Positions 18,029 to 39,700 of a stretch of DNA of 64,000 nt are shown piece after piece (position 1 is the first letter of the stretch; each line of letters begins with the position of its first letter). Made by a program: the position numbers and the translations under genes. Where the stretch lies: assembly GCF_003611695.1 (NCBI RefSeq), contig NZ_RAWE01000025.1, forward strand, positions 1 through 64,000. The letters run 5' to 3'. This DNA comes from Corallococcus carmarthensis (lineage in GTDB: Bacteria > Myxococcota > Myxococcia > Myxococcales > Myxococcaceae). The notes under the pieces are model-generated. The model saw only the letters and a program-made list of their open reading frames with translations, was not told where the DNA came from and searched no databases.

Positions 18029-20764
18029 TTGCCCGAACTGCCACCCAGCGCGTATCCGGCCTTGTTCGAGCACACGCGAGATGGCGTGCTCGTCCTGGAC
18101 CCGACCCTGCGGGTCGTGGCCGTGAACCGCGCCGCGGAGGCGCTGCTGGGGCCCCGTGGCCTGGTGGTAGGGCAGGGCGTGGATCGCGTGCTGCCGGGCT
18201 GGACGCCTCCCCAGGTTTCTTCGCCGGACGGCGCCCCCCATGAGACGGATTGCCATGTGGGCCCGGTGCACCCGGTGCGGGTGCTGGCGGTGCCGCAGGA
18301 CGGCGGCTGGATGCTGATGCTCCGGGGCATGGACGCGGCGCAGGCGGCCGAGTCCATCCTCCGGCAGCAGAAGGAGTTCTTCGAGGCGGTGGTGAGCCAC
18401 AGCCCGGTGGCCATCGTCACCATCAGCCGCGACTTCGAGGTGCTGACCTGGAACCCCGCCGCGGAGCGGCTCTTCGGCTACACGCCGCAGGAGGCGCTGG
18501 GGCGCAACATCCTCAAGCTCGTGGCCAACGTGGACGACATCCGTCCGGAGGCCGAGGAGACGTCGCGCGAGGTGCTGCGCAAGGACCGCGTGCACGTCGT
18601 CACCAAGCGCGTGCGCAAGGACGGCACGGTGGTGGACGTGGAGCTGCGCGCGCTGCCGGTGACGGTGGCCGGCCAGTCCATGGGCTTCATCGCCATCTAC
18701 CACGACGTCACCGACCTCCAGCGGGCGCGCCAGTCCGCCGAGGACGCCAACCAGGCCAAGAGCCTGTTCCTGGCCACCGTGAGCCATGAAATCCGCACGC
18801 CGATGAACGCCATCATCGGCATGGCGGGGCTGCTCATGGACACGGCGCTCACGCCCGAGCAGCGCGACTTCGCGTCCACCATCCGCCAGAGCGGGGACGC
18901 GCTGTTGGGGCTGCTCAACGACATGCTGGACTTCTCCAAGATCGAAGCCGGCCGGGTCGAACTGGAGCAGCAGCCCTTCAACCTGCGCCAGTGCGTGGAG
19001 TCCGTGCTGGACCTGCTCGCCATGCGCGCGAGCGAGAAGTCCCTGGACCTGGGCTACCACGTCACCGACGAGACGCCCGTCACCGTGGTGGGCGACGGCG
19101 CGCGCCTGCGGCAGGTGCTGCTCAACCTGGTGGGCAACGCGGTGAAGTTCACCGAGCGCGGCGGGGTGTCCATCTCCGTGGACACGCCCCGTCAGCCGCT
19201 GGCGCCGGGCGGCCTCTTCGAGCTGCACTTCGCGGTGCAGGACACCGGCCTGGGCATCACCGAGGCCGCGCGCGGCGGCCTGTTCCAGCCCTTCAACCAG
19301 CTGGATGAATCCGTGTCACGGCGCTACGGCGGCACGGGCCTGGGGCTCGCCATCAGCAAGCGGCTGGTGGAGGCGATGGGCGGGCGGCTGTGGATGGAGA
19401 GCGAGGGGGTCCCAGGCAAGGGCGCCACGTTCCACTTCACGTTCCAGGCGCGCGAGGCCCCGCGCAGCGCGGACGCCCTGCGCCCGGACGCGCTCAAGCT
19501 GCACGGCCGGCGCGTGCTGGTGGTGGATGACAACGCCATCAACCGCAAGCTGCTGGGCCGCCAGCTGGCCGCGTGGGGGATGGCCATCGTGGAGGTGGGC
19601 TCCGGCGCGGAGGCGCTGTCGAAGCTGGAGTCAGGGGCCCGCTTCGACCTGGCCATCCTGGACCACCGCATGCCGCTGATGGACGGCCCCACGCTGGCGG
19701 CGCACATCCGCCAGCAGCGCGACGCGCGCGAGCTGCCCCTGCTGTTGCTCACGTCGTATGATCAGCGCGACGCGCAGCCGCCCGGCCTGTTCACCGCGGT
19801 GCTGCCGCGGCCGGTGAAGGCGTCGCAGCTGCACGACGCGCTGATGACGTGCCTGGCCCAGGACCTCATCTCCGCGCGGCCCCTGCCCGTCGCGCCCGCG
19901 CCCGCCACGCGCGAGCGCTCCGTGTTCAACTCGCGCCCCGGCGAACAGATGCCGCTGCGCATCCTGCTGGTGGAGGACAACCCCACCAACCAGAAGCTGG
20001 CGCTGCTGGTGCTGGACCGGCTGGGCTACCCGGCGGACACCGCGAACAACGGCCGCGAGGGTCTCAATCTCCTGGCCCGCAAGCGCTACGACGTCGTGCT
20101 GATGGACGTCCAGATGCCGGAGCTGGACGGCCTGGAGACGACGCGCCAGCTGCGCAAGGACCTTCCCCTCAGTGATCAGCCGTGGGTCATCGCCATGACG
20201 GCCAACGCGATGACGGCGGACCGGCGTGAATGCCTGGACGCGGGCATGGATGACTTCCTCAGCAAGCCCATCCGCGTGGAGGAGCTCATCTCCGCGCTGC
20301 GCCGCTCCTGGGAGCGCCTGCCGCGCGAATCCGGCGCGGCCCCCATCCGCGCGCCGGAGGCTCCCCGCATGGGCGCCCCGCGCATCCGGGGGCTGGAGGC
20401 GGGCGCGCTGGACCGGCTGTGGCAGTCATTGGACGGACAGGTGGAGCGGATGCTCCCGGAGCTCGTCGACACCGCGCTGGAGAGCATGCCCCGGCTGATG
20501 GACGACGCGCGGGGGGCGCTCGCGCGCGGCGAATTGGAGAACCTGGCCAGGGCCGCGCACACGCTCAAGTCCAACGCGGCCTACTTCGGGGCGGCCACCC
20601 TGGAGTCGCTGTGCTGGGACATCGAGCAGCGCGCGGACGCCCGGGTGATGGAGGGGCTGGAGCCGCTCGTCGCCCACTGCCAGGAGGCGCTGGACGAAAG
20701 CCGCCGGCTCCTGGAGCAGCTCAAGGGCACCGTGGCGTCCGGACCGCGGCCTGACGCCTTCTAG
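18029..20764 (+). CDS. Hybrid sensor histidine kinase, PAS-PAS-HisKA-HATPase-REC-REC-HPt
   Basis: 911 aa soluble multistep phosphorelay protein. Two PAS-like domains occupy about residues 10-115 and 120-235. HisKA carries His253 (TVSHEIRTPMN), and the HATPase has NLVGNAVKFTE and GTGLGLAIS. Receiver 1 has Asp545 in LDHRMP and receiver 2 has Asp693 in MDVQMP. A C-terminal HPt domain has His844 in AHTLKSN. The start is TTG at 18029: GGAGGGGG at 18018-18025 is a very strong ribosome site only if translation starts there, because an upstream in-frame TTG at 18011 precedes it. The last 4 nt overlap the stop of the convergent Hsp70 gene. Confidence 0.93.
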   Translation: MPELPPSAYPALFEHTRDGVLVLDPTLRVVAVNRAAEALLGPRGLVVGQGVDRVLPGWTPPQVSSPDGAPHETDCHVGPVHPVRVLAVPQDGGWMLMLRGMDAAQAAESILRQQKEFFEAVVSHSPVAIVTISRDFEVLTWNPAAERLFGYTPQEALGRNILKLVANVDDIRPEAEETSREVLRKDRVHVVTKRVRKDGTVVDVELRALPVTVAGQSMGFIAIYHDVTDLQRARQSAEDANQAKSLFLATVSHEIRTPMNAIIGMAGLLMDTALTPEQRDFASTIRQSGDALLGLLNDMLDFSKIEAGRVELEQQPFNLRQCVESVLDLLAMRASEKSLDLGYHVTDETPVTVVGDGARLRQVLLNLVGNAVKFTERGGVSISVDTPRQPLAPGGLFELHFAVQDTGLGITEAARGGLFQPFNQLDESVSRRYGGTGLGLAISKRLVEAMGGRLWMESEGVPGKGATFHFTFQAREAPRSADALRPDALKLHGRRVLVVDDNAINRKLLGRQLAAWGMAIVEVGSGAEALSKLESGARFDLAILDHRMPLMDGPTLAAHIRQQRDARELPLLLLTSYDQRDAQPPGLFTAVLPRPVKASQLHDALMTCLAQDLISARPLPVAPAPATRERSVFNSRPGEQMPLRILLVEDNPTNQKLALLVLDRLGYPADTANNGREGLNLLARKRYDVVLMDVQMPELDGLETTRQLRKDLPLSDQPWVIAMTANAMTADRRECLDAGMDDFLSKPIRVEELISALRRSWERLPRESGAAPIRAPEAPRMGAPRIRGLEAGALDRLWQSLDGQVERMLPELVDTALESMPRLMDDARGALARGELENLARAAHTLKSNAAYFGAATLESLCWDIEQRADARVMEGLEPLVAHCQEALDESRRLLEQLKGTVASGPRPDAF

Positions 20765-22278
20765 GCGCGTTGGGGCGCGTTCGGGTCGCTGATGGTGAGC
20801 GGCTGACGGCGTCCGTCCTTCGCGACGAGGCTGGCGGTGAGGGCGAAGTCCGGCCCCATGCGCAGCTCCAGCGTGGTGGGGCCCGGGTGGGCCACGCGCC
20901 AGTCCGGTTCAATGCGCACGGTGCCCAAGAGCTCGCGCTCCACGGTGGTGCGGTCCAGCGCTTCGAAGAGCGCCACCGGCACGGGGCCGGGCCAGGGCGG
21001 CAGTTCCAGGTCCACGCTGCGCGTGCCGGGCACGGGCGTGTTGGCGGGGAGCACCTCGTGCTGGCCGCCGCCGGGCACCATGGCGCCAATGGGCATGGGC
21101 ACCACGTCCGACAGGCCGCTGATGCCGCGCGCCAGGTTGCGCCCCAGGATGGCCGCGCCCACGGCCACGCCCAACTCCGGGTGCACCTCCTTGTCCGACG
21201 ACAGCTTCTTGAAGTGGGCCAGGCGCTTGCGGATGGCGGGCATGCGCGTCTGGCCGCCCACCATCACCAGCTCGTCGATGGCGTCCGGCTTCATGCCCGC
21301 CTTCTCCAGCACGTCGTCGCACGCGGCGGCGGTGCGCTCGATGAGCTGGAACACCATGGCCTCCATCCGCTCGCGGGTGAGCGTGACGTTGAAGTCCACG
21401 AAGGCGCCGTCCTTCTGGGTGATGCAGGGGATGCGCAGCGGGACGGACGTGCCGCTGGAGAGCGCCATCTTCGCGGACTCGGCGGCGAACACCAGGCGCT
21501 GCATCACGACCTTGTTGCCGCGCAGGTCGATGCCGTGCTGCTTCTGGAAGTCGTCCACCAGCGCTTCGACGATGGCCTCGTCGAAGTTGGCGCCGCCCAG
21601 GAACGCGTCGCCGCCGGTGGCCAGCACCTTCACCACGCGGTTCTGCACGGACATGAGCGTGACGTCGAAGGTGCCGCCGCCCAGGTCGAACACCATCACC
21701 GTCTGCTCGGGGTTGCGCAGGTTGGCGTAGTAGAGCGCCGCGGCGGTGGGCTCGTTGACGATGGCGCGCACGCGCAGCCCCGCCTTCTCCGCGGCGTGGC
21801 GGATGGCCTCGCGCTGGCGGATGGTGGCGTGCGCGGGCACGGTGAGCACGCACTCCTCGAACCGGGCCCCGGCCGCGTGCGTGGCCAGCGTGTTGAGGTG
21901 CTTGAGGATGAAGTGCGCCACGTCGATGAGCGGCGTCACCTTGCCGTACACCTCCACGGCGGTGTAGCCATCCGGGCCCTCCACCAATTCGAAGGCGAAG
22001 CGGTTGCGGTGGCGCGCCACGTATTCGGACTGGAAGCGGCGGCCCAGGAAGCGCTTGGCGCCGAAGATGGTGTGGCGCGGGTCGTCGATGATCTGCCGCC
22101 GCGCCGCGGGGCCGACGATGGCCTTGTCGCCCGCGTGGAACCACGCGATGGAGGGCAGCGTGAGGCTCTTCTCCGCGATGGGCACCACGCGCAGCTTGTT
22201 CGCCTTGTCGAAAAAGGCCGCCGCGGTGTTGGTGGTCCCGAAGTCGATGCCGAGGATGGGGGCGGCGCTCGTGCTCAT
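20761..22278 (-). CDS. Short Hsp70-family protein
   Basis: 505 aa. The actin-like ATPase domain is clear: GIDFGTTNT at the start, NEPTAAALYY, the phosphate loop VFDLGGGTFDVTL, and VGGQTRMPAI. It is about 130 residues shorter than DnaK. The C-terminal part keeps only a reduced beta region (PVPGTRSVDLELPPWPG ...) without the helical lid, as in HscC-like or other specialised Hsp70s. The start at 22278 (MSTSAAP) is preferred over an ATG four codons upstream. It lies 70 nt downstream of the DUF47 gene on the same strand, so it could be the last gene of that operon. Confidence 0.88.
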   Translation of the reverse strand: MSTSAAPILGIDFGTTNTAAAFFDKANKLRVVPIAEKSLTLPSIAWFHAGDKAIVGPAARRQIIDDPRHTIFGAKRFLGRRFQSEYVARHRNRFAFELVEGPDGYTAVEVYGKVTPLIDVAHFILKHLNTLATHAAGARFEECVLTVPAHATIRQREAIRHAAEKAGLRVRAIVNEPTAAALYYANLRNPEQTVMVFDLGGGTFDVTLMSVQNRVVKVLATGGDAFLGGANFDEAIVEALVDDFQKQHGIDLRGNKVVMQRLVFAAESAKMALSSGTSVPLRIPCITQKDGAFVDFNVTLTRERMEAMVFQLIERTAAACDDVLEKAGMKPDAIDELVMVGGQTRMPAIRKRLAHFKKLSSDKEVHPELGVAVGAAILGRNLARGISGLSDVVPMPIGAMVPGGGQHEVLPANTPVPGTRSVDLELPPWPGPVPVALFEALDRTTVERELLGTVRIEPDWRVAHPGPTTLELRMGPDFALTASLVAKDGRRQPLTISDPNAPQRA

Positions 22279-22348
22279 GAGAGGCCCCATCCTCGCACGA
22301 CCCGCGCGTCAGGGCACCCGGTGGGGGGTGGACTCCGGGACAGTGCCT

Positions 22349-22975
22349 CTAGGAGTGCTCCAGGACGACCCCCTCCACCACCTGGACCACGTCCACGCAC
22401 CGGTCGAGGGCCGTCTCCAGCAGGTCGTAGACCCCCTTCCACTTCATGACCGTGAGTGGGGGCAGGTCGCCGCGGAAGAGGCGGCCCAGGCCCGTGCCCA
22501 GCACCGTGTCTGCCTGGCCTCGCAGCCTCCGGAGCGCTTCACACCCCGTGAGGATGCGCTCGGGCTGCTTGATGGCGCGCAGGCACGTCACCACGTCGCG
22601 GACCTGTTCGGCGCACAGCATCAGCAGCCGCGCCAGCTCCGTGGCCTCCGGCAGGCACTCCGGCAGCTCGTACGCGTGCAGTCGCGAGCCAGCGGCGTGC
22701 GCGAGGTCCAGCACCCCGTCGATGCGGGACACGAGCGCGTGGATGTGGATGCGCTCGAAGGGGGTGATGAACTCGCGGTGGAGCCGGGTGAAGGCGGCCT
22801 TCGCCACCGCGTCGCCCCGGTGCTCCACGGCCTGGAGCGCCCGGACCCGGTCGCCCACGTCCCGGTAGTCGCTGAAGAGCGCGTGCAACAGGCGCGTGCC
22901 CTCCAGCGTGGTGGTGCACTGCGCGTCGAAGTCGTCGAAGAAGCCGTCCGACCTTGGCATCAGTCGCTGCAACAT
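22349..22975 (-). CDS. DUF47/PhoU-like family protein
   Basis: 208 aa all-helical protein. Blocks such as FFDDFDAQCTTTLEG, EHRGDAVAKAAFTRLHREFITPFERIHIHALVSRIDGVLD and a C-terminal VYDLLETALDRCVDV match the DUF47 (UPF0111) family, which is structurally related to PhoU and is usually linked to Pit-type phosphate transporters. No Pit gene is adjacent here. Instead it follows the DUF4956 gene by 31 nt as the apparent last or second-last gene of the CotH/VTC operon. This supports a phosphate theme for that operon. Confidence 0.88.
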   Translation of the reverse strand: MLQRLMPRSDGFFDDFDAQCTTTLEGTRLLHALFSDYRDVGDRVRALQAVEHRGDAVAKAAFTRLHREFITPFERIHIHALVSRIDGVLDLAHAAGSRLHAYELPECLPEATELARLLMLCAEQVRDVVTCLRAIKQPERILTGCEALRRLRGQADTVLGTGLGRLFRGDLPPLTVMKWKGVYDLLETALDRCVDVVQVVEGVVLEHS

Positions 22976-23006
22976 GGGGGCTCCAGGCGCGGTGGGGGGA
23001 GGGGGC

Positions 23007-23675
23007 CTACTCGGGGTCGATGGAGGCTCCGCGCACGCCGGGCAGCGCGCCGCGCAGCTTCTCCAGGAGGAGGAAGGTGTCGGTGTGCTCCGGCACTGGC
23101 AGCTCCACCACGGCGGTGCCGCCCGGGGTGGCGTGGGCCTGCTCCAGGGTGAGCACGCGCGAATCGGGGTGCAGCAGGCGCAAGGGAGGCAGGGCGGCGC
23201 CCAGGTCCTCCACGTCCAGGGAGAGCTTCAGCCGCTGCGGGTGGCGCTGGAGGGTGGAGTCCAGCGCGAGCAGCACGGCCCCGAAGAACAGCGTGGCGCA
23301 CACGGCGATGGGGAATGCGCCCAGGCCGCAGGCCATGCCCACGCCAATCATCACGAACATCACCGCCGCGTCGCGTGAGTCCTTGATGCCGGAGCGGAAG
23401 CGGATGAAGCCGCCCAGGCCCACCAGTCCGAAGGCGCGCGACATGCTGTCGCCAATCACCGTGGACATCACCGCCCCCGCGATGGCGATGAGCAGCTGGG
23501 TGTGCATGGTCTCCTGCGCCATCACCGGCGCGCGCGGCATCCACCGCCGCCACGGCCGGAAGGCCAGCAGCGAGCCCAGCACCAGCGCGAAACCCAGCCG
23601 CTCCAGCACCTCCAGGAGCGGCAGCCCGTGCACGGACGCCTGCGCGCCCGCGTTGAAGACATCATGCGACGCCAT
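23007..23675 (-). CDS. DUF4956 / MgtC-like membrane protein
   Basis: 222 aa. Three or four membrane helices lie in the first half (about residues 25-42, 57-75, 98-135). The block GLVGLGGFIRFRSGIKDSRDAAVMFVMIGVGMACGLGAF is the DUF4956 hallmark and resembles MgtC/SapB. A soluble alpha/beta domain of about 80 residues follows (LLHPDSRVLTLEQ ... TFLLLEKLRGALPGV). DUF4956 genes often sit beside VTC polyphosphate polymerase and CotH genes in bacteria, as here. The first 14 nt overlap the end of the upstream kinase-repeat gene, so translation is probably coupled. Confidence 0.87.
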   Translation of the reverse strand: MASHDVFNAGAQASVHGLPLLEVLERLGFALVLGSLLAFRPWRRWMPRAPVMAQETMHTQLLIAIAGAVMSTVIGDSMSRAFGLVGLGGFIRFRSGIKDSRDAAVMFVMIGVGMACGLGAFPIAVCATLFFGAVLLALDSTLQRHPQRLKLSLDVEDLGAALPPLRLLHPDSRVLTLEQAHATPGGTAVVELPVPEHTDTFLLLEKLRGALPGVRGASIDPE

Positions 23676-25344
23676 GGCGAGGCTCCTCTTCCAGCTGCGA
23701 GGCCGTCCGCGCCGCCTGGCGCAGGAGGGCGAAGTCGTGGGGGTGACGTTCCAACAGCTCCAGCGTGAGGGCCTGGCCTCGCGCCGTCGCGGCGAGGAGG
23801 CCCAGGCTCTTCACGGTGGCGGAGGGCCAGGTGTCCGCGAGCACCGTGCGCAGCCTCCACGCGGCGGGCACGTCCATGCCGGTGAGCGAGTCCAGCACCT
23901 CCTCGCACGCCACGCCGAACGTCTCGCGCAGCTTCCACGCGGCGGGCACGTCCAGCCCGGTGAGCGAGCCGATGACCGCCTTGGGCGCGCGCGCCGCGTG
24001 CTGTTCGCGAAGGGCCCAGGCGCGGGGGCTGTCCAGGCCCTCCAACGAGCGCAGCACGGCGTCCGGTGCCACGGCCATCGCGCGCTCGCGCCACTCCCAC
24101 GCCCGCTCGCTGTCCACGCCCCGCAGCGAGCGGCACAGCGCCCGGGCCACGCCCTCGTCCGCGAAGGCCGCGTCGCCGCCGCGCGAGGACAGCCACCGCC
24201 AGCGCTCGTCCCAGGCCCGCGCGCTGTCCAGGCCGGAGAGCGACACCATCACCGGCTCCGGCGCGGTACGTGACAGCCGGTCGCGCATGAGCCAGGCGCG
24301 CTCGGAATCCAAACCCGTGAGCGACGCGGCCACGGCCTCCGGGGCCCGTGCCTCCCACCGCTCGCGCAGGTGCCAGGCTTCCGGCGTGTCGCTGGCGTCG
24401 TCGGTGAGGGACGCGAGCACGTGCTCGGGCGCGGCGGCCTCCAACCGGTGGCGCCATTCCCACGCCGCGGGGTGGGTGAGGCCAGCGAGCCCATGGGCGA
24501 TGAGCTCCGGGCATCGCTCCGCCAGCAGCGCGCGGCGCGCCTCGACGTCCTGTCCCTCCATGCCCGCGAGGAACCACGCGGCGAGGCCCGGCTCGTCCAC
24601 GGTCCAGCCATCCAGCCGGGCCAGGAACCGGCCGCGCGCCTCCGGCAGCGAGCGCACCGGGACGGTGGGGCGCGTCAGGCCCGCGTGGAAGAGGGGCGCT
24701 TCACCGCGGCGCGCGCGCAGCACGTCCTCCACCAGCCGCGTCACCTGCTCGTCCAGGGGCACGTCGGTGTTCTCGATGATGCTCCAGCGCTCCGGGCTCG
24801 CGACGGCCAGGGAGCGGTAGCCGGCGCGCAGGCGGGCCTGGAGGCCGGTGCCGGTGAGCCCCTTGCGCGACGGCGTGGAGCGGTCCTTCGCCAGCAGCTT
24901 GGACGCGCGGCGGCGGGCGCGGGCGATGGCGGGATCCACGTCGATGAGGAAGACGCGGTCCGGGTGCAGTCCGCGCTGGCAGGTATCCAGCACGGGCCGC
25001 ACCTCCGCTTCCGGCAGGCCCCGGCCGAAGCGGGCCAGCACCTCCGCGGTGTAGAGGAAGCGGTCGGCGATGACGACGTCGTGCTCCGCCAGCGCCGGCC
25101 GCGTCACCTCCTCCAGGAGCTGCGCCTCGCGCGCCGCGTACAGCAGCAGCTCCGCCACGGGGGTGAGCGCCAGGTGCAGCGGGTCGCGCGTGAAGCGCCG
25201 CAGCCCCTCCGACACGGGCGAGGCCAGCCGGCCGTCCTCGCGCACGTGGCGCACGGTGAGCCCGGCCCGGCGCAGCTCGCGCGCCACCCGGTTGGACAGC
25301 GTCGTCTTGCCCGACCCGTCGATTCCCTCGAACACGATGAACAT
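23662..25344 (-). CDS. tmk: Thymidylate-kinase-like protein fused to a tandem-repeat domain
   Basis: 560 aa, more than twice the normal dTMP kinase (about 210). Residues 1-215 carry the P-loop GIDGSGKTT (7-15), the VVIADRFLY DR motif and a basic LID-like region RARRRASKLLAKDRS. From about residue 250 to 515 there are about eight repeats of roughly 27 residues with consensus SLtGLDS.rAW..R......AP.aV, a two-helix pattern centred on an invariant Trp. I do not recognise the repeat family. ATG overlaps the stop of the porin gene by 1 nt, and the end overlaps the DUF4956 gene by 14 nt. Whether it makes dTDP or phosphorylates something else in this phosphate-linked operon is open. Confidence 0.85.
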   Translation of the reverse strand: MFIVFEGIDGSGKTTLSNRVARELRRAGLTVRHVREDGRLASPVSEGLRRFTRDPLHLALTPVAELLLYAAREAQLLEEVTRPALAEHDVVIADRFLYTAEVLARFGRGLPEAEVRPVLDTCQRGLHPDRVFLIDVDPAIARARRRASKLLAKDRSTPSRKGLTGTGLQARLRAGYRSLAVASPERWSIIENTDVPLDEQVTRLVEDVLRARRGEAPLFHAGLTRPTVPVRSLPEARGRFLARLDGWTVDEPGLAAWFLAGMEGQDVEARRALLAERCPELIAHGLAGLTHPAAWEWRHRLEAAAPEHVLASLTDDASDTPEAWHLRERWEARAPEAVAASLTGLDSERAWLMRDRLSRTAPEPVMVSLSGLDSARAWDERWRWLSSRGGDAAFADEGVARALCRSLRGVDSERAWEWRERAMAVAPDAVLRSLEGLDSPRAWALREQHAARAPKAVIGSLTGLDVPAAWKLRETFGVACEEVLDSLTGMDVPAAWRLRTVLADTWPSATVKSLGLLAATARGQALTLELLERHPHDFALLRQAARTASQLEEEPRHGVA

Positions 25345-26525
25345 CAGAAGGCGACCTCCATCTGCAGCAGCACGGCCTTGCGTGAAGCCAGGTTGTCCTC
25401 CAGGGACGTGACGACGGCGGGCACGGCGTCACCGGCCTTCCGCACCTCCGCCTGGGCCTGGAGGCGCCAGTGGCGGAACTGGCCGACGTTCAGGCCCAGC
25501 GCGCCCTCCCACACCAGGTCCTGGTGGAGCGTGCGGTCCGGATCCAACGCGGACAGCATCACGAAGGGCTCCACGAACAGCGCGCCCCGTGTCCCTCCGC
25601 CAATGCGCCAGCCGGTCAGCGCCCGCGCGGTGAGGAAGGGGCCCTCCAGGCCGGTGAGCAGCTCGGTGCGGCCCACCAGCACCTCGCCCCAGGTGCGCAG
25701 CGCGCCGCGCCCGATGGGCAGCTCGTGCTGGACGTCCAGTCCCGCCGTCCAGCCGGTGTGCGAGCCGCCGTCGATGGCGCCCGCGGGCTGGAGGAGCGCG
25801 GAGGCGCCCAGCTCCACGGTGCCCAGCGTGAGCGTGCCCCGGAAGGCAGGCACCACGCCCAGCCCCTTGGACAGGTCCACCTTGCCGGTGTCGTTGCCCG
25901 TCTGCCACACGCCCGCGCGCAGCTTCAGGTCCACCGCGCAGTCCTTGCACTTCCACTCCAGCTGGGCGCCGGGCCTGCGGCCGGTGAGCACCAGCGCGTC
26001 GCGCAGCACGTCCCGCAGGAGGCCCCGGCGCGCGAGCGGCAGCGACCGGGAGGATTCCAGCTCGATGAGTGACAGGGGGACCTTGAACTGGCCCGCGCGA
26101 ATGGCGAAGCCACGGGGCAGGTCCAGCCAGACGTAGGCGTCCTTGAGGCCGTCCTGCACGTCGAACTCGACCACCGCCTTGATCTTCTTCTTGAAGCGGT
26201 AGGTGGCCTCCAGGCGCGTCGCCGGCAATGACAGCCGTCCGGACCAGACCTTGTCCGGACGCGAGTCCACCGTCTCCCGCACCGACAGCCGGCCTCCCAC
26301 CTCGATGACGCCTGAGCCCGCGGGGAGCCGCACGGTGGGCGGTGGAAGGTCCGCTCCCGTGTCGTCGTCCGGCGGAGGCGGCTCGGCCACGGGGGTGGAA
26401 GGCGGCTCCGGCAGGGACTGCGCGGAGGGCGGAGGCGCGTCCGCGGGAGGGGCGGTGTCCGCTTGCCGCGCGTTCGCGGACGCGCAGAGCAGCAGTAAGG
26501 TCAGCAGCAGCCCGCGTGCGGGCAT
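25344..26525 (-). CDS. Outer-membrane porin resembling phosphate-selective OprO/OprP
   Basis: 393 aa. The signal peptide is at 1-19 (GLLLTLLLLCASANA). A Pro-rich linker follows (APPADAPPPSAQ, PPSTPVAEPPPPDDD), and then a barrel with strands such as RLEATYRFKKKIKAVVEFDVQDG and RGFAIRAGQFKVPLSLIELESSRSL, the latter typical of the OprO/OprP group. The C-terminal residue is Phe. The ATG at 26525 is chosen for the signal peptide; an open frame further upstream overlaps the VTC gene. It lies 61 nt after the VTC gene, and its TGA shares one base with the ATG of the next gene. Phosphate or polyphosphate passage is inferred from family and context. Confidence 0.78.
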   Translation of the reverse strand: MPARGLLLTLLLLCASANARQADTAPPADAPPPSAQSLPEPPSTPVAEPPPPDDDTGADLPPPTVRLPAGSGVIEVGGRLSVRETVDSRPDKVWSGRLSLPATRLEATYRFKKKIKAVVEFDVQDGLKDAYVWLDLPRGFAIRAGQFKVPLSLIELESSRSLPLARRGLLRDVLRDALVLTGRRPGAQLEWKCKDCAVDLKLRAGVWQTGNDTGKVDLSKGLGVVPAFRGTLTLGTVELGASALLQPAGAIDGGSHTGWTAGLDVQHELPIGRGALRTWGEVLVGRTELLTGLEGPFLTARALTGWRIGGGTRGALFVEPFVMLSALDPDRTLHQDLVWEGALGLNVGQFRHWRLQAQAEVRKAGDAVPAVVTSLEDNLASRKAVLLQMEVAF

Positions 26526-26586
26526 GGCACGGCCAGAAGGGGGGCGGAGTCTGGGTGGCACGGGAGGGGGATTCCTTAGGGGGGAT

Positions 26587-27354
26587 TCACTTCGTGGGAC
26601 GCGCGCCGTCCAGGAGCGCGTGCATGCCCTGCTCGAACTTCGAGGCGGCCGTCTCATGGGACGACAGCCCCCACAGCGCTTGCTCCAGCCAGGAGGGAGT
26701 GTCGCGCTTCCACTTCACCTCCACGACGGTCGCGGGCGGCGCCCGGCCCACGAGCCGCGTGGGGGCCGCGACCGCCGCGGCAGCGGGCGTGTCCGGTGGC
26801 TGCGCGAACACCAGCCCTTCATCCAGCGTGATGCGCACGTCGCAAGACACCGTGGCCAGCGTGGTCCGCCGGTACCACGCGGTGAGCCAGGGCCGCACCG
26901 GCATGAGGCTCGCCTGTCGCAGGAGCCGCGCGGCGGCGCCCTCCAGCGGCAGGGGCTGGCCCGTGAGGATCGCCCGGGCCTCCGGTTCGGTGAGGGACAG
27001 CCGGACCTTGGTGCGCCGCTCGCCGTGGTTGCGCTTCAGCTCCAGGAAGCGCGTCCCCGTCAGCACCGGCGCCTCCGCGAGGTGGGCCGCGCCCGCGTAC
27101 TCCCGCAGGCGCAGCCGCTCCGCCTGGCCCGAATGACACGTGCCCAGGAAATCCAGGCCCTCGGTGTCCAGGTAGGTCGTGCGCGTGTAGGCCACGGGAA
27201 GGCCCGGGTCGTAGAGGTGGCGGGACGTCCAACCCTGGATGGCGCTCAGGAAGGCCGCCAGCGCGTCACGCGACGGTTGGAAGCGCCGCTCCCGGTCCTG
27301 CTCCGCGCAAGGCGCGGGCCTGTCCTCGTCCTGCACCCGGGCCGTCGCGCTCAT
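26587..27354 (-). CDS. VTC-domain polyphosphate polymerase family protein
   Basis: 255 aa, the size of the catalytic VTC (triphosphate tunnel metalloenzyme) domain. Segments that line the tunnel can be followed: ERRFQ, YTRTTYLDTEGLDFL, RLRLREY, FLELKRNHGERRTKVRLSL, CDVRITLDEGL and TVVEVKWK. These supply the alternating Arg/Lys and Glu residues that bind phosphate chains and metal. Family members make polyphosphate from ATP. It starts with ATG overlapping the CotH stop (ATGA). Eukaryotic VTC complexes act at membranes; here the DUF4956 protein of the same operon is the likely membrane partner (inference). Confidence 0.85.
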   Translation of the reverse strand: MSATARVQDEDRPAPCAEQDRERRFQPSRDALAAFLSAIQGWTSRHLYDPGLPVAYTRTTYLDTEGLDFLGTCHSGQAERLRLREYAGAAHLAEAPVLTGTRFLELKRNHGERRTKVRLSLTEPEARAILTGQPLPLEGAAARLLRQASLMPVRPWLTAWYRRTTLATVSCDVRITLDEGLVFAQPPDTPAAAAVAAPTRLVGRAPPATVVEVKWKRDTPSWLEQALWGLSSHETAASKFEQGMHALLDGARPTK

Positions 27355-28955
27355 GGGCTCGTACCGAAGGCCGCGTGCACCTCGGCCTGTCGCTTCGTCG
27401 CGAAGTCCACCAGGCCGTTGGCGCCGGTGAGCGCCTCCTGGAACGCCTGCGGGCTGCTCAGGAACGTGAAGCCCGCCTGCTCCGCGTTCTCACCCACCAC
27501 CCACGGGGTGACGAGCGCGTGCTCCTCGCGGAAGCGCGCCTCCAGGGGACCGGGGGCGAGCAGGCCGTCCACGGCCTCCAGCGCGTACTTCTCGTAGACG
27601 GGCCGGTAGGTGGGGTCGTCCATCAGGTAGCGGATGAGCGGCCAGGTCGCGTCCACCGACTCCTGCGAGAGCGACGTGGCGCGCATGCCGTCCTGGAACG
27701 ACCGGTCATGGTCCCACGTCACCCAGTGCAGCCGGCCGTTCTCCCCCGGATGCGAATACAGGAGGTAGTTGTGGGCCATGCCCCCGTACGCATCCCAGTT
27801 CTCGATGACGGTGTTGTAGGCCAGCCACTTGAGGAAGCCGTCCACGTCCAGCGTCGCCTCCAGCCGCGAGCGCCACGCGACGGAGTCCGCGCGGTCCGAA
27901 TTGAGCGCGGTGATGAGCGCCTGCACGCTGCCCCAGCCCGCCGCCTCCGCCGCCTTGTTGTCCGGCTCGAAGGAGGCCTCGTCGAAGGTCTGGAGCCGCG
28001 CGCCGGTGCCGTCCGCCTCGTAGATCGGACCGCTGTCGTCGCCGAAGGAGCGCTCGAGCAGCGGATCCCCCGGATCCTCCGCCAGCGTGTAGAGGCCCCA
28101 GTACTGGGGGCCGTCGCCGTGGTCCAGGTAGACGGCCGCGAAGGCGGTGTAGCTGGCCGGGACGCCCGCCTCGCGGAACAGGTCCGTGGCCACCTTGTTG
28201 CGGACGAGCGACGCGTCCGCCACCGCGTTGGACAGCGACAGCTTGCCGAAGCCGTAGAAGTGCTGGCCCTCGATTTCAGGGTGCGCATCCTCGAACTTGT
28301 CGAAGTTGAAGCGCAGCGGCATCTTGCCCACGCCGCTCCGCCACGCCTGGGACAGCGACGAGTTGCCCTTGTAGCGAAGCCCCACGTGGTTCCATGACTT
28401 GCCCTCGAACTTCACCGTCGCGGGCACGTACACCGGCGTGTTGGGGAGGAGGTCGCCCGCGCCACCGCCGCCCGGATCCAGCCCGCCGCCGTCGGGACGT
28501 CCGCCGGGGCCTCCACCGCCCATCGTCGGCAGGCACGCGAGCGCGCCGCCCATGGGGGACGTGGCGCAGGTGCTGGTGAAGGTGGTTCCGTTGAAGGTGA
28601 CGGTGCAGGCCTCACCGGCCGCCTTGCCCACGCACGCGGCCTCGAACTCCGCGGGGAATCCCCCGCCACCCCCCAGGCCACCGTCCGGAGGCCCACCGGG
28701 TCCGACGCCTCCACCCGCGCCGAACTCGCCGAGCATGGATGTCATGTCGTCCTGCATCGTCGTCCAGTCCTCGGATGTGACGACGATGTCCAGGCGCTGC
28801 ACCTTTCCCTTGGGAAAGACGACGTCGTAGGCCGGTGGAGCGTTCTTCCCGTGCGAGGCGTCGGTCCAGGTGTCGGGGCGGTCGCTGCCACAGGCGCCAA
28901 GGACGAACGCCAACAACGCGAAGGCGCCGGACAGGCGCGGACGAGGCAAGGCCAT
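27351..28955 (-). CDS. CotH-kinase-family lipoprotein with 4-Cys insertion
   Basis: 534 aa. The lipoprotein signal ALLAFVLGACGS places the acyl Cys at residue 21. The CotH domain shows LDIVVTSEDW near the start, VGLRYKGNSSL, KLSLSNAVADASLVRNKVA, NWDAYGGMAHNYLLY and the metal-binding VTWDHDRSF. CotH proteins are atypical kinases that phosphorylate proteins. Between about residues 78 and 165 is an insert: two Gly/Pro-rich linkers enclosing a four-Cys module (ACVGKAAGEACTV ... STCATSP ... LACLP). It is the first gene of the operon; its TGA overlaps the ATG of the VTC gene. The start at 28955 is chosen for the signal peptide. Confidence 0.87.
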   Translation of the reverse strand: MALPRPRLSGAFALLAFVLGACGSDRPDTWTDASHGKNAPPAYDVVFPKGKVQRLDIVVTSEDWTTMQDDMTSMLGEFGAGGGVGPGGPPDGGLGGGGGFPAEFEAACVGKAAGEACTVTFNGTTFTSTCATSPMGGALACLPTMGGGGPGGRPDGGGLDPGGGGAGDLLPNTPVYVPATVKFEGKSWNHVGLRYKGNSSLSQAWRSGVGKMPLRFNFDKFEDAHPEIEGQHFYGFGKLSLSNAVADASLVRNKVATDLFREAGVPASYTAFAAVYLDHGDGPQYWGLYTLAEDPGDPLLERSFGDDSGPIYEADGTGARLQTFDEASFEPDNKAAEAAGWGSVQALITALNSDRADSVAWRSRLEATLDVDGFLKWLAYNTVIENWDAYGGMAHNYLLYSHPGENGRLHWVTWDHDRSFQDGMRATSLSQESVDATWPLIRYLMDDPTYRPVYEKYALEAVDGLLAPGPLEARFREEHALVTPWVVGENAEQAGFTFLSSPQAFQEALTGANGLVDFATKRQAEVHAAFGTSP

Positions 28956-33110: not shown

Positions 33111-33479
33111 ATGCTTCCCGCAGGCCGGGTCGAGGGGACGCTCCTGTGCCACGTGGGGCCGCACCGCATCGCCTTCGAGGCGGGCGAGGTGGCCTCCATC
33201 GCCGCGCCGGACGCGGGCGCCGTGTCCGCCCACCGGGCCTTCCAGGACTCCGGGGGCTTCCAGCGCGTGCTCGTGACGGCCGCCGGGGAGACGGTGGGCG
33301 TGGACGGGCTGGAGATCGACTCGGAGGTGCTGTCGGTGCTGCCGCCCTCGCCGGTGGTGGCGGGCGCTTCCGGGGGCAGCCTGCGCGGCTTCGTCATCAC
33401 CCGCGGGGTGCTCTGGCCGCTGCTGCGCCTGGACGGCTTCCAGCGCTACCTGCGCGGGCTGGACGGGGAGGGCGCATGA
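33111..33479 (+). CDS. Divergent CheW-like protein of the che3 cluster
   Basis: 122 aa. The start GTLLCHVGPHRIAFEAGEVASI resembles the first strands of a CheW domain, and GSLRGFVITRGVLWPLLRLDGF resembles a later one, but the middle is shortened and diverged. It ends with ATGA overlapping the start of mcp3A. It may be a specialised adaptor or competitor of CheW3, and may correspond to an accessory che3 gene of M. xanthus (I recall a protein named CrdC, but cannot confirm it is this one). Confidence 0.7.
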   Translation: MLPAGRVEGTLLCHVGPHRIAFEAGEVASIAAPDAGAVSAHRAFQDSGGFQRVLVTAAGETVGVDGLEIDSEVLSVLPPSPVVAGASGGSLRGFVITRGVLWPLLRLDGFQRYLRGLDGEGA

Positions 33480-35317
33480 CGCCGCCGCCGGAGCTTCGCT
33501 CCCTGGGCCGCTGGACGACGCGGCCGCGCATCACGGGCAGCTGCCTGGGCGTGGGGCTCGCGTTCCTCCACATCCACCTGTCGCACACGCTGCCGGAGGC
33601 GGGGCGCACGCCGCTGTCGGGGCTGATGTTCTGCGCGCTCGCGCTGTTCATCAGCGTGGGGTACGCGCGCGACACGCGGGCCCTGCGCACGCTGTTCGCG
33701 CTGGGCGAAGGCCGGCTGCCCGTCACGTCGGAGCACCTGCTGGTGGCGGTCCAGGAGGTGGCGGCCATCCCCGGCCGGAGCTTCTGGTTCGTGATGCAGG
33801 GCTGGCTGGGCGGCACGCTGACGGTGGCGCTGACCTTCCCCCTGCTGGCGCACGTGCCGTGGACGGAGTCCCTGCGCGTGACGGTGCTGGGGCTGTCCAT
33901 CGGCCCCTTGAGCGCGATGCTCGTCTACCTGATGGTGGTGCGCCGCGCCCGGGCCACGCTGGAGCAGCTGGTGTCGCGGGGCCCGTCGCCGCTGGAGGTG
34001 CTGGCCGCGCTGCCGCCCCGGCGCATGCACATCCGCCGCCGGCTGGTGGTGTTCACCGCCATCGCGGTCCTGAGCCCGTCGCTCTTCATCCTGGACGTGG
34101 CCTTCACGCGCACGGTGACGGTGGTGGACGCGTGGGGCCAGGCCAAGACGCCCGCCGAACGCACGGAGGTGATGGCGCGGGCGCGCAACGGCGGGGGCCC
34201 GCCGCTGGGGCTCGTCGCGGGGCTCGTCACGCTGCTCATCCTGGGCACCGCGGCGCTCGCGGGCACGGCGCTGTCGGAGCCCCTGCGCGCCATCACCGAG
34301 GACGCGACGCGCATCGCGCGCGGGGAGGTGCGGCCCCCACGCGTCATCCACGCCGAGGACGAGGTGTGGGCCACCTCCGCGGCCTTCACCCAGATGCAGG
34401 TGCAGCTGGTGCAGGCCCTGTCGCAGCTCAAGCGGGCGGGCATTCAAATCTCCTCCACCACGGAGCAGCTGGTGGCCACCAGCACGGAGCAGGAGGTGGG
34501 CGCGGACGAGCAGGCCGGGGCGCTCAACGCCACCAGCGCCACCACGGAGGAGCTGGCCCGGTCCGCGCAGCAGATCGCCGACAACGCGGAGTCCGTGTCC
34601 ACCATCGCGGAGACGACCTTCGGCGCGGCGCAGTCCGGCCAGCGCGGCGCCACCGCCTTCCTGGGCGCCATGCAGCGCATGAAGGAGGACAACGAGGCCA
34701 TCGCGGACGCGGTGGTGCGCCTCAACAAGCGCGTGCAGCAGATTGGCAAGGTGGTGGAGTTCATCAACGAGATCGCCGACAAGTCCGACCTGCTGGCGCT
34801 CAACGCGGAGCTGGAGGGCACCAAGGCGGGCGAGGTGGGGCGGGGCTTCTCGCTGGTGGCGGCGGAGATGCGAAGGCTGGCGGAGAACGTCATCCGCTCC
34901 ACGAAGGAGATTGAAGGCCTCATCGGGGAGATCCGCGACGCGACCAACGGCGCGGTGATGGCCACGGAAGCGGGCCTGAAGACGACGGAGCTGGGCACGC
35001 TGCTGGCGGCGCAGGTGGACGACAGCCTGGGGCTCATCCTGGAGCTGGCGCGGCAGACGTCGCACGCGGTGCGCAGCATCTCGCTGGCGACGCTGCAGCA
35101 GCAGACGGGCACGGATCAGCTCGCGGCGGCCATGGGGGACATCCTGCGCGTCACCGAGCAGAACGCCGCGGCCACCAAGCAGATGGTGGCGGCCAACGCG
35201 GACCTGTCCGCCCTGGCGGCGGACCTGCAGCACGTGGTGCAGCGCTTCCACGTCGAGCCCCCCGGCGGCGAACCCACCGGTACCCCCGGTTCGCCCCCTG
35301 CGTCGGGAGGTGGGTGA
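33476..35317 (+). CDS. mcp3A: Methyl-accepting chemotaxis protein Mcp3A
   Basis: 613 aa. Several membrane helices lie in the first 270 residues, without a large periplasmic domain, so sensing is probably in or at the membrane. A HAMP-like region (SEPLRAITEDATRIARGEV) precedes a long cytoplasmic coiled coil. The signalling tip reads DLLALNAELEGTKAGEVGRGFSLVAAEMRRLAENV. The ATG overlaps the preceding TGA. The gene is paralogous to mcp3B, with identical DNA over the tip. In M. xanthus the Che3 receptors act on developmental gene expression rather than motility. Confidence 0.9.
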   Translation: MTPPPELRSLGRWTTRPRITGSCLGVGLAFLHIHLSHTLPEAGRTPLSGLMFCALALFISVGYARDTRALRTLFALGEGRLPVTSEHLLVAVQEVAAIPGRSFWFVMQGWLGGTLTVALTFPLLAHVPWTESLRVTVLGLSIGPLSAMLVYLMVVRRARATLEQLVSRGPSPLEVLAALPPRRMHIRRRLVVFTAIAVLSPSLFILDVAFTRTVTVVDAWGQAKTPAERTEVMARARNGGGPPLGLVAGLVTLLILGTAALAGTALSEPLRAITEDATRIARGEVRPPRVIHAEDEVWATSAAFTQMQVQLVQALSQLKRAGIQISSTTEQLVATSTEQEVGADEQAGALNATSATTEELARSAQQIADNAESVSTIAETTFGAAQSGQRGATAFLGAMQRMKEDNEAIADAVVRLNKRVQQIGKVVEFINEIADKSDLLALNAELEGTKAGEVGRGFSLVAAEMRRLAENVIRSTKEIEGLIGEIRDATNGAVMATEAGLKTTELGTLLAAQVDDSLGLILELARQTSHAVRSISLATLQQQTGTDQLAAAMGDILRVTEQNAAATKQMVAANADLSALAADLQHVVQRFHVEPPGGEPTGTPGSPPASGGG

Positions 35318-35318
35318 C

Positions 35319-37142
35319 ATGGCCCTCCCTTCGCGCGAGGCCCCCCGGCGGGCCGCCTTCAGCCGGCAGTTGATGGCGCCCATCCCGCTGGCGAACCTGG
35401 TGGGCTCCACGCTGGGGCTGCACTTCGCGTCGCTCGTGGTGGGCGACAAGCTGGTGCAGCGGCTGGGCATGCTCGTGGTGCTGGTGGTGGGCGTGAGCGC
35501 GCTGCACATGCTCCTGGGCGTGGGCGTGTCCCTGCGCCGCTTCCCCCGGCTGCGGGCCCTGGAGCGCGGGGAGCTGTCTCCCACGCCCGAGCACCTGGCG
35601 CTGGTGGTGGGCGAGGTGGCGCGCGCGCCGGGCGAGGCGTTCTTCGGCTCACTGGCGTTGTGGGGGCTGACCACGGGCGTGGTGGCGACGGCGCTCTGGT
35701 CGTGGATGGGGCTGGAGGGAAACATCACCCTGCGGGTCGCGTGGCTGGGGGCGCTGTTCGGCCCGCTCACGTCGCTGCTCGTGTATGGGCTCGTCACGCT
35801 GAGGGCGCGGCGCGGCGTGCTGTGGGTGGCTGAGCAGGGGCTGACGCATGCGCAGGTCATCGCCGCGCTGCCCCGGCGCTCGCGCATCCGCGCGCGGCTG
35901 GTGGCCTTCACCGCCATCTGCGTGCTGACGCCCGCGGTGATGTGCGCGCAGGTCGTGACGGCGCTGACGGACCGGGTCTTCTCCCAGCTGGAGAGAAACA
36001 GCCTGGACGCGCAGGGCGCGCTGGTGGACGCGCTTCGGCTGGACGCGTTCACGGCCAGCGTGCTCCTGGGCGCGGTGGTGTTCGGCCTGGCGCTCGCCAC
36101 GGCGTATCTGGGCGGGACGTTGCTGGGGCGGCCCATGCGGGAGTTGTCCGGCGAGGCGCGCCGCATCGCCGCGGGCGACCTGGCCAGCCCCCGGCTGGTG
36201 CCCGCGGAGGACGAGGTGTGGGCGGTGTCCGCGGCCTTCACCACGATGCGCACGCACCTGGCGGACGTGCTCTCGGAGTTGCAGCGCGCGGGCTCGCAGA
36301 TTTCGGCCACCACGGAGGAGATCCTCAGCACCTCCGGGCGCTACGAGGCGGGCGCCGCGGAGCAGGCCAGCAGCCTGGATGAGACGAGCGCCACCACGGA
36401 GGAGCTGGCGCGCTCGGCGAAGCAGATCGCGGACAACGCGAGCTCGGTGGCGGAGATCGCCCAGCGCACGCTGGCGGCGGCCCAGGGCGGGCAGCGCAGC
36501 GCGGAGTCCTTCCTGGGGGCCATGTCGCGCATGCGGCAGGACAACCAGGCCATTGGTTCGGCGGTGGCGCGGCTCAACAAGCGCGTGCAGCAGATTGGGA
36601 AGATCGTCGAGTTCATCAACGGCGTCGCGGACAAGTCCGACCTGCTGGCGCTCAACGCGGAGCTGGAGGGCACCAAGGCGGGCGAGGTGGGGCGGGGCTT
36701 CTCGCTGGTGGCGGCGGAGATGCGCCGGCTGGCGGAGAACGTGCTGGAGTCCACGAAGGAGATTGAAGGGCTCATCGAAGAGGTGCGCGAGGCCTCCGCC
36801 GCGGCGGTGACGGTGACGGGCGGCGGGGTGCGCGCGGTGGAGACGGGGACGGGGCTCGCGGAGCAGGTGTCCGAATCGCTCCGGCAGATCGTCAGCCTGG
36901 CGGGGCAGACGTCGGACGCGGTGCGGATCATCTCCCGGTCCACGCAGCAGCAGCAGGCGGGCACGGATCAGCTCGCGGACACGATGGCGGACATCCTGCG
37001 CATCACCCAGCAGAGCCTCAACGCGACGAAGCAGGTGGGCGCGGCGAACGGGGACCTGTTGGGACTGGCGCAGGACCTGCGCGGCGTGGTGGAGCGCTTC
37101 CAGATCCACCAGGCGACCTTGCGCAAGGGGGGCGGCGGGTGA
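35319..37142 (+). CDS. mcp3B: Methyl-accepting chemotaxis protein Mcp3B
   Basis: 607 aa, same layout as Mcp3A: membrane helices up to about residue 265, HAMP-like GRPMRELSGEARRIAAGDL, then a coiled-coil signalling domain with the tip DLLALNAELEGTKAGEVGRG. The ATG at 35319 has GGGAGG 8 nt upstream and follows the mcp3A stop by 1 nt. The stop overlaps the GTG start of cheA3 (GTGA). The two receptors probably arose by tandem duplication and may form mixed arrays. Confidence 0.9.
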   Translation: MALPSREAPRRAAFSRQLMAPIPLANLVGSTLGLHFASLVVGDKLVQRLGMLVVLVVGVSALHMLLGVGVSLRRFPRLRALERGELSPTPEHLALVVGEVARAPGEAFFGSLALWGLTTGVVATALWSWMGLEGNITLRVAWLGALFGPLTSLLVYGLVTLRARRGVLWVAEQGLTHAQVIAALPRRSRIRARLVAFTAICVLTPAVMCAQVVTALTDRVFSQLERNSLDAQGALVDALRLDAFTASVLLGAVVFGLALATAYLGGTLLGRPMRELSGEARRIAAGDLASPRLVPAEDEVWAVSAAFTTMRTHLADVLSELQRAGSQISATTEEILSTSGRYEAGAAEQASSLDETSATTEELARSAKQIADNASSVAEIAQRTLAAAQGGQRSAESFLGAMSRMRQDNQAIGSAVARLNKRVQQIGKIVEFINGVADKSDLLALNAELEGTKAGEVGRGFSLVAAEMRRLAENVLESTKEIEGLIEEVREASAAAVTVTGGGVRAVETGTGLAEQVSESLRQIVSLAGQTSDAVRIISRSTQQQQAGTDQLADTMADILRITQQSLNATKQVGAANGDLLGLAQDLRGVVERFQIHQATLRKGGGG

Positions 37143-39700
37143 ACCCCAGCGAACGGCTCCTCAAGCAGTTCCGCGACCTGGTCACGGTCCGTCTGGAGCG
37201 CATCAACCGCTCCCTGATGGAGCTGGAGTCCGGGGGCAACCTGGAGGCCGGGCAGCGGGTGCTGCGCGAGCTGCACGGGCTCAAGGGCGAGGCCCGGATG
37301 ATGGGCTTCAGCGAGATCAACACGCTCGCGCACGAAATGGAGGAGCTGGTCCGGTGCGCGGAGCCGCAGCGCTACCGCCTGTCGCCGGAGTCGACCGACG
37401 CGCTGCTCGCCACGGCGGACACGGTGCTCGCGCTGTCGGGCGCGCTCCAGGCGGGAGAGCCGCTGCTGGCGGTGGAGACGCTGGTGGCGACGCTGCAGCA
37501 GCGGGGCGTCGTGGAGTCCGCGCGTCCGGGTGGAGCCTCCCGCCCGGAGGAGGGCGGCCGGGCCGCGAAGGGGGAGGGGGCGTCGCATCTCATCGTGACG
37601 GACCGCCGTGAGCCGTCGGGGGCCGTGGTCGTCCCCGCGCGCTGGGGCACGCCCGTATCGCGCCAGGACGCGCCTGCTGGCGCCGCATCCCCGGGAACCG
37701 CCGCATCGCAGTTCCTCGCCACGGCCCTCCGCTCGGAGCCGGCCGGGAGTTCGGCGGGAACTCACGGAGACGGCGCCGCACCGGGCTCGCACGGTTCGCA
37801 CCTGGGAGGTCCGGCCACCGGAGGCTCGGGCCATTCACACCTCGTCGCGCCGGTGCCGGGAAGCCCGGCGGGTTCGCCCCTCGCCCATTCCACGGCGTCC
37901 CCGGGTCCGCTGCCCGGCACGCGGATGGTCGACACCTCGCGCGCGCGCCCTTCCTCCAGCCCCGCGCAGAAGCCCGGCACCGGTGCGGTGCGCACCGGCG
38001 ATGTCCGCATGGACACGGCCGTGCGCATCGGCGTGGCCAGCCTGGACATGCTCACCAGCGCGGTCACCAACCTGGGGCAGGTGGCCCGCCGCCGCGAGCT
38101 GGCCACCGCGCGCCGCCTGGAGCTCGTGCGCGAATTGAGCGAACTGGCCCGCGCCGCGGAGGACCTGGGCCCCGCGGGCGTGGCGCTCGCCGAACGGCTG
38201 GGCCGCGCCAAGGAGGTGGCCGCCACCCTGCACCGCGAGGCCAAGCTGCTCGCCAACGCGGAGCTGCGCGACCTGGATCAGGTGTCGGAGGAGATCCAGG
38301 GCCTGCGCATGCTGCCCCTCTCCGTCCTCTTCGAGCCCTACCCCCGCATGGTCCGCGACCTCGCGCGGGAGCTGGGCAAGGAGGTGGAGCTGGTCGTGGA
38401 CGGTGAGGACACCCGCGCGGACCGCTCCGTCGTGGAGGCCCTGCGCGAACCCCTCATGCACCTGGTCCGCAACGCGCTGGACCACGGCCTGGAGACGCGC
38501 GTGGACCGCGTCGCCTCCGGCAAGCACCCCCGGGGCTGTCTCACCCTGCGCGCCGCCCGCGAGGGCAGCCGGATCATCCTGCGCGTGGAGGACGACGGCG
38601 CCGGCATGGACCCCGCGCTCCTGCGGCGCGTGGCCGTGCGCCGGGGCATGCTGGACGAACCCGCCGCCAACGCCCTGTCCGACGCCGCCGCGCGCGACCT
38701 CGTCTTCCTGCCCGGCTTCACCTCGCGCGAAGTGGTCACCGACCTGTCAGGTCGGGGCGTGGGGCTGGATGCCGTGCGTACGTCCCTCCAGGCCCTGGGC
38801 GGCGACGTGGGCGTGGAGTCCGCGCCCGGCTGGGGCACCATCTTCACCCTGCGCGTCCCGGTGTCCCTCACCGTGGCGCCCCTGCTCTTCGTCCAGGTGT
38901 TCGACGAGACGCTCGCCTTGAGCGCCGTCCACGTCTCCCGCGCCCTCAAGGTGGACGCCTCGGAGGTGGGAGAGGTCGCCGGCCGTCCCACCCTGCGGAT
39001 GGAGGGCCGCGTGCTGCCCTTCGCCTCGCTGGCGTCGCTGCTGGGACATGCCCCCGAGCGCCCGGCCCGGGAGGGCGAGCTGGTCCTGGTGGTGAAGGGC
39101 CAGGGCATGGAGGCCGCACTGGCGGTGGATCGGGTGCTGGAGGAGCGCGTCCAGGCCATCCTCCCGTTGAAGGGCATCCTCGCGCGCTTCACGCACCTCA
39201 CCGGGGCGACGTCGCTCGCGGACGGGCGGCTGGCCATGGTGCTGTCCGCGGCCGCGCTGGCGGCGGGCGTGCACGGCACCGTGCCCCTGAAGCTCGCCCG
39301 TCCCCCGGTGCGAGCGCCCGCGCCGCGCCGCCGCCGCATCCTCGTGGTGGACGACTCGCCCCTCACCCGCGAGCTGGTGGCCAACCTGCTGGAGGCGGTG
39401 GGGTACGACACCCTCCGGGCGGCGGATGGCCCCTCGGCGCTGGAGCAGCTGGGGGAGGAGGGCCCCCCGGTGGAGCTGGTGGTCACCGACCTGGAGATGC
39501 CGGAGATGGACGGCGTGGAGCTCACCCGGCGTCTGAAGGCCGACCCGGGCCGGGGCCGCCTGCCCGTCGTCATCCTCACCACCCGGGGAGGGGAGGCGGA
39601 CCGGGCGCGTGGGCTGGCGGCCGGAGCGGACGGCTACATCACCAAGGGCGACCTCGTCCGGCAGGACCTGGTGGACGTCGTAGGGCGTCTGCTGGGCTGA
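37139..39700 (+). CDS. cheA3: CheA kinase with C-terminal receiver (CheA-CheY hybrid)
   Basis: 853 aa. The HPt domain has His46 in RELHGLKGEARMMG. Residues of about 125-285 are a low-complexity Gly/Ser/Pro/Ala linker without a recognisable P2 domain. Dimerisation helices follow (about 290-400), then the ATPase with LVRNALDHGLETR, DDGAGMD and GRGVGLDAVR, a CheW-like P5 domain, and a receiver with Asp784 in VTDLEMP. Start is GTG at 37139, overlapping the mcp3B stop. With the receiver fused to the kinase, as in FrzE, phosphate may be passed internally or drained before reaching CrdA (inference). Confidence 0.93.
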   Translation: MNPSERLLKQFRDLVTVRLERINRSLMELESGGNLEAGQRVLRELHGLKGEARMMGFSEINTLAHEMEELVRCAEPQRYRLSPESTDALLATADTVLALSGALQAGEPLLAVETLVATLQQRGVVESARPGGASRPEEGGRAAKGEGASHLIVTDRREPSGAVVVPARWGTPVSRQDAPAGAASPGTAASQFLATALRSEPAGSSAGTHGDGAAPGSHGSHLGGPATGGSGHSHLVAPVPGSPAGSPLAHSTASPGPLPGTRMVDTSRARPSSSPAQKPGTGAVRTGDVRMDTAVRIGVASLDMLTSAVTNLGQVARRRELATARRLELVRELSELARAAEDLGPAGVALAERLGRAKEVAATLHREAKLLANAELRDLDQVSEEIQGLRMLPLSVLFEPYPRMVRDLARELGKEVELVVDGEDTRADRSVVEALREPLMHLVRNALDHGLETRVDRVASGKHPRGCLTLRAAREGSRIILRVEDDGAGMDPALLRRVAVRRGMLDEPAANALSDAAARDLVFLPGFTSREVVTDLSGRGVGLDAVRTSLQALGGDVGVESAPGWGTIFTLRVPVSLTVAPLLFVQVFDETLALSAVHVSRALKVDASEVGEVAGRPTLRMEGRVLPFASLASLLGHAPERPAREGELVLVVKGQGMEAALAVDRVLEERVQAILPLKGILARFTHLTGATSLADGRLAMVLSAAALAAGVHGTVPLKLARPPVRAPAPRRRRILVVDDSPLTRELVANLLEAVGYDTLRAADGPSALEQLGEEGPPVELVVTDLEMPEMDGVELTRRLKADPGRGRLPVVILTTRGGEADRARGLAAGADGYITKGDLVRQDLVDVVGRLLG

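Follow-up and report, generated by a model that had tools for sequence, protein, structure and literature searches.

A cassette of VTC, kinase and porin genes is conserved together across many soil myxobacteria, and its probable role is to produce phosphate chains and deal with them at the cell envelope. One copy lies in the window analysed here, a 64,000-nucleotide stretch of DNA from Corallococcus carmarthensis. The distinctive part of the module is a fusion of a thymidylate kinase (TMK) domain to helical repeats, referred to below as TMKrep. An earlier note on this DNA overlooked that distinctiveness, as well as a further copy of the module elsewhere in this genome and a link to Pel genes in relatives. 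The best reading of these genes, which we hold tentatively and with somewhat less than even confidence, is that they form a conserved trans-envelope phosphate-polymer module.

The locus lies on the minus strand (20761-28955) and contains seven genes. In order along that strand they are: a CotH-family kinase, predicted to be a lipoprotein from its LGAC lipobox (27351-28955; Pfam CotH, 1.5e-56); a VTC-domain protein, predicted to be a polyphosphate polymerase (26587-27354; Pfam VTC, 2.5e-17); a 16-strand outer-membrane porin of the Porin_O_P family (25344-26525; partial Pfam match, 2.8e-8); TMKrep, with its TMK-fold domain in residues 1-215 followed by 27-residue helical repeats (23662-25344; Pfam Thymidylate_kin, 1.4e-20, N-terminal part only); a DUF4956 membrane protein related to MgtC (23007-23675; Pfam DUF4956, 7.8e-10, with an MgtC match of 3.4e-5 that falls below the cut-off); an accessory DUF47/PhoU-like gene (22349-22975; Pfam DUF47/PhoU_div, 6.3e-14); and an Hsp70-like gene from which most of the C-terminal part is absent (20761-22278; Pfam HSP70, 9.6e-104, profile positions 1-418 of 599). 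Re-measured junctions agree with the earlier account of six minus-strand genes here: CotH and VTC overlap by 4 nt, porin and TMKrep by 1 nt, and TMKrep and DUF4956 by 14 nt. Gaps of 61, 31 and 70 nt separate VTC from porin, DUF4956 from DUF47 and DUF47 from Hsp70, respectively; the first is the loosest core junction, and the start codon of the porin is uncertain. A promoter scan of the locus found no sigma-70-type site, and a terminator scan returned terminator-like sites at the level of shuffled sequence.

A search with a TMKrep profile across 195 Myxococcota genomes gave matches in two score classes and placed TMKrep in 75 of the genomes, where it almost always adjoins DUF4956, VTC and porin genes. 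The 55 loci retrieved, in which genes were called with a codon-usage model trained on the window genes, display two layouts: type A, that of the window, with the order CotH-VTC-porin-TMKrep-DUF4956 (22 loci); and type B, with the order porin-VTC-TMKrep-DUF4956-lipoprotein-phosphoesterase. The two layouts are paralogous, and the genome of the window (a 10.8 Mb assembly) has both, its type B copy being divergent and located on another contig (locus L118:1-8465). Counting all loci, some of which end at contig ends, TMKrep and DUF4956 are present in all 22 type A loci, CotH and porin in 21 each, and VTC in 20, all of which also have CotH and DUF4956; the 34 type B or related loci have TMKrep in 34, DUF4956 in 33, and VTC and porin in 32 each. 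The 1-nt overlap of porin and TMKrep is repeated in every type A locus that has both genes. Across the 195 genomes, TMKrep and DUF4956 occur together in 74, TMKrep alone in 1, DUF4956 alone in 36 and neither in 84 (Fisher p ~7e-25, a value that ignores relatedness). The unit is kept, in its two layouts, in Myxococcaceae, Archangium-type, Anaeromyxobacter-like and Polyangia/Kofleriaceae genomes. In the TMKrep tree the type A proteins form one clade (support 100/100), and the closest neighbours of the window's protein are one genome of the same genus and one Corallococcus.

That these genes recur in one order across 22 type A loci is beyond chance, and this survey of gene neighbourhoods in Myxococcota bears out the conserved gene unit that had been proposed. 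It could be argued that the genes are unrelated neighbours whose order reflects recent common descent only, since all of them are on the minus strand, as are several neighbouring genes. That reading, to which we give almost no credence, is already contradicted by two divergent layouts in which the four core genes are kept, overlaps included, across several families.

The boundary of the module is narrower than was first suggested. DUF47, which the earlier note had counted as a member, is found in five of 22 type A loci and in none of the 34 type B loci, and it comes and goes, since the Corallococcus sister locus L003 gave no tblastn match to it. The Hsp70-like gene, put forward as a possible member, is found in three of 22 type A loci and no type B locus, is a neighbour in Corallococcus only, and probably lies outside the unit. 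Both are lineage-specific, and their distribution led us to reject them as core members.

For the VTC protein, a single-sequence search against the PDB gave chance matches only, and a family profile was required to detect the yeast Vtc4 structure 3g3q (E 2.8e-14). In an alignment where one fragmentary outside locus has gaps, all VTC proteins of the module keep equivalents of Vtc4 R264, K281, R361, R373, E426, K428, S457 and K458. The equivalent of R266 is Arg in type A proteins and Lys in most others of the module, and the position of K200 holds Arg in 18 of the 20 type A sequences, the window's included; for K200, K281, R361, R373, K428, S457 and K458 we use what we take to be the numbering of the Vtc4 site. 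The window's VTC thus has the equivalents of R264, R266 and E426 together with the basic tunnel residues, and is a predicted polyphosphate polymerase with the Vtc4 active site. Changes at R264, R266 or E426 inactivate yeast VTC, an enzyme that couples making the polymer to moving it across the membrane (PMC9911596). The window's protein differs from the yeast complex in having neither an SPX domain nor fused membrane helices, and its membrane partner would be a different protein, DUF4956. The suggestion that the operon polymerises phosphate therefore stands as a predicted activity, the active site being kept; our literature search did not find polymerase activity for a bacterial VTC.

TMKrep has a true TMK fold with a changed acceptor site, according to its AlphaFold2 model (pLDDT 87) and alignments. 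Residues 1-215 of the model match TMK structures, including 4edh (Z 21.5, rmsd 2.3 over 198 residues) and 5x7j, and retain the P-loop and DR motif. The C-terminal part, by contrast with thymidylate kinase itself, adds helical repeats with a period of 27 residues by autocorrelation, for which no Pfam match was found. One could instead take the protein for a kinase acting on dTMP or in nucleotide salvage whose operon placement is incidental, and both the fold and an NCBIfam dTMP_kinase score just above the cut-off would fit. We regard this as very unlikely, however, because a separate housekeeping TMK is encoded on another contig of the same genome, because TMKrep and DUF4956 co-occur so tightly, and because the aligned fusion proteins, compared with the Tth enzyme and others, do not conserve the thymidine-site residues: the DR of the canonical ADRAxH motif is replaced by R(E/D), giving R(E/D)AQ, and the Tyr of AYQG is replaced by Leu. 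The presence of the other TMK led us to reject a housekeeping role. TMKrep was also considered as a PPK2 and rejected, PF03976 being absent from its Pfam matches at E 0.1 and from its contig in a PPK2 search of its own genome. In a scan of genome contigs, which had limited sensitivity, full-length fusions were found only in Myxococcota and in one metagenome-assembled genome (MAG) labelled Proteobacteria.

Two further proteins of the type A unit are predicted to lie in the cell envelope. The CotH protein, a predicted lipoprotein with a catalytic motif, matches the CotH structure 5jd9 (E 7.5e-11), with which its NWDxY..HNY and WDHD motifs align. The type A CotH proteins of L095, L096, L097, L098, L100 and L102 have WDHN for WDHD, and their activity is possibly altered. 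The porin is modelled by AlphaFold2 as a 16-strand barrel (pLDDT 70) and matches the Porin_O_P family profile. Its top Foldseek match is OprP, of the OprP/OprO phosphate porins (2o4v, 4rjw), but at approximately 14% identity and with a Z of 23.0 tied with chitoporin and OmpF-like porins. Its phosphate selectivity is therefore putative, and the suggestion that the operon brings phosphate in is not supported.

The same match, and the family assignment, speak in favour of the phosphate uptake and storage system envisaged in the earlier note, in which the porin imports phosphate, VTC stores it and DUF47 exerts control. DUF47 in some loci and transporter genes in relatives also point that way: in Archangium (L004) DUF4956 is followed by DUF47 and a PiT phosphate transporter, PiT not being adjacent to DUF47 in the window, and a Polyangia arrangement reads porin-TMKrep-lipoprotein-VTC-Na/Pi cotransporter. 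We nevertheless consider uptake and storage unlikely, given the tie with general porins, the distribution of DUF47 and a lipoprotein kinase that is left unexplained. In addition, the genome already encodes the storage enzymes PPK1 and two PPK2, so that a VTC polymerase dedicated to storage would be redundant, although this is a weak argument. The broader label of a phosphate/polyphosphate system fares better, in that phosphate transporters or phosphatases accompany the module in several relatives, type B loci for instance carrying a PKD protein of the Metallophos/Pur_ac_phosph (purple-acid-phosphatase-like) type; phosphate import, protein phosphorylation by CotH in this setting and the membership of DUF47 and Hsp70 are the parts that find no support.

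Links to phosphate and links to glycans both recur among the relatives. CotH, VTC, DUF4956 and DUF4832 are known as accessory genes of Gram-positive pel operons, where they may modify or regulate the polysaccharide (PMC7112168, PMC12345266), and CotH, VTC and DUF4956 are adjacent in those operons as they are here. Two Kofleriaceae-like MAGs have PelF, PelG, DUF4956 and TMKrep consecutively (L007:6392-11725, L010:341-4638), and in L007 VTC adjoins DUF4832. Type A TMKrep proteins join Polyangia and these two pel-linked loci in the tree (96/90), a grouping that is unsure as long branches meet there, and in a quick VTC tree the type A proteins are sister to that of L007. Moreover, CotH and DUF4956-like mutants of Streptococcus intermedius changed in Pel level while retaining aggregation (PMC12345266). 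The module may therefore be a surface-glycan accessory system that modifies or regulates an exopolysaccharide, its phosphate chemistry serving that end. We see this as possible, if on the unlikely side. The genome of the window has no PelG and hence no beside-pel context, so its module, unlike the Gram-positive one, does not flank a pelDEADAFG operon; PelG scores above the cut-off in only 6 of 195 genomes of the phylum; and the type A and type B core loci examined with Pfam have no adjacent glycan synthase. The myxobacterial version also differs from the Gram-positive one in its outer-membrane porin, its TMKrep and its Gram-negative envelope.

The trans-envelope phosphate-polymer reading draws on DUF4956 loci without TMKrep. 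One family of these has the order porin-CotH-CotH-like-VTC-DUF4956, and another the order PPDK_N lipoprotein-VTC-DUF4956-HlyD-OEP. In the latter, a lipoprotein that carries the ATP-binding domain of pyruvate phosphate dikinase lies beside VTC-DUF4956 (L149:9823-11850, L150:2638-4692, L159:5621-7642; domains assigned by Pfam in the first two and by sequence similarity in L159); together with HlyD and OEP genes it takes the place that CotH and porin have in other loci. The recurrent set thus comprises VTC in the cytosol, DUF4956 in the membrane, a phosphotransferase or phosphatase outside the cytoplasm and a channel in the outer membrane. Several points count against this reading: the literature search found no polymerase activity for a bacterial VTC; the type A loci L092 (VTC and CotH missing) and L095 (VTC and porin missing) keep TMKrep-DUF4956, and therefore this pair may work without a local VTC; and in S. 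intermedius aggregation persisted after VTC deletion, with no Pel change noted (PMC12345266).

The conserved unit, the VTC active site, the TMK fold with its altered acceptor site, the porin barrel and the CotH motif can be read in the sequences, and we infer the polymer made, its direction, its coupling and the functional links among the proteins as follows. VTC, working on the inner face of the inner membrane, would build polyphosphate from the gamma-phosphate of ATP, and DUF4956, as its membrane partner, would pass or couple the chain outward; by analogy with yeast VTC, synthesis may be coupled to inner-membrane transfer. The porin would let through phosphate or short chains. The CotH lipoprotein of type A would use, or be served by, a phosphate pool outside the cytoplasm, a pool that the phosphoesterase of type B may recover. 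TMKrep would be a cytosolic nucleotide-binding partner that probably phosphorylates an acceptor other than dTMP, or gates the VTC-DUF4956 unit. A bolder version, which we think improbable, is that VTC-DUF4956 is a polyphosphate synthesis-and-export machine. It would supply phosphoryl groups outside the cytoplasm, where ATP is unavailable, to kinases that differ in fold, namely CotH or the PPDK-like lipoprotein, with a porin or OEP channel in the outer membrane and TMKrep as nucleotide-responsive controller.

The porin and TMKrep version of CotH-VTC-DUF4956 appears to be new, as no paper on it was found in a literature search covering few subscription journals. The NELoc-2 locus of Clostridium perfringens is similar in that its VTC genes are accompanied by CotH, a HEAT-repeat gene and a glycosyltransferase (PMC2879425, PMC11677781), but it belongs to another organism and, by its published description, has another gene order. 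VTC and DUF4956 proteins occur widely in bacteria and await characterisation. The compact recurrent set described here, which includes a pore of the outer membrane, a secreted kinase and the new fusion of kinase and repeats, supplies concrete partners for them in genetically tractable myxobacteria, and bears on two questions: whether bacteria make or export polyphosphate by a VTC route, and what serves as the phosphoryl donor of secreted kinases.

Elsewhere in the window, the plus strand carries a DUF2378 protein adjoining a histidine kinase (12317-12985), a chemosensory cluster of two MCPs, a CheA-type kinase, CheB and CheR (33146-42083), and a reading frame of 6500 codons that runs off the window (44501-64000), the first 2000 residues of which contain NRPS condensation, AMP-binding and carrier domains.
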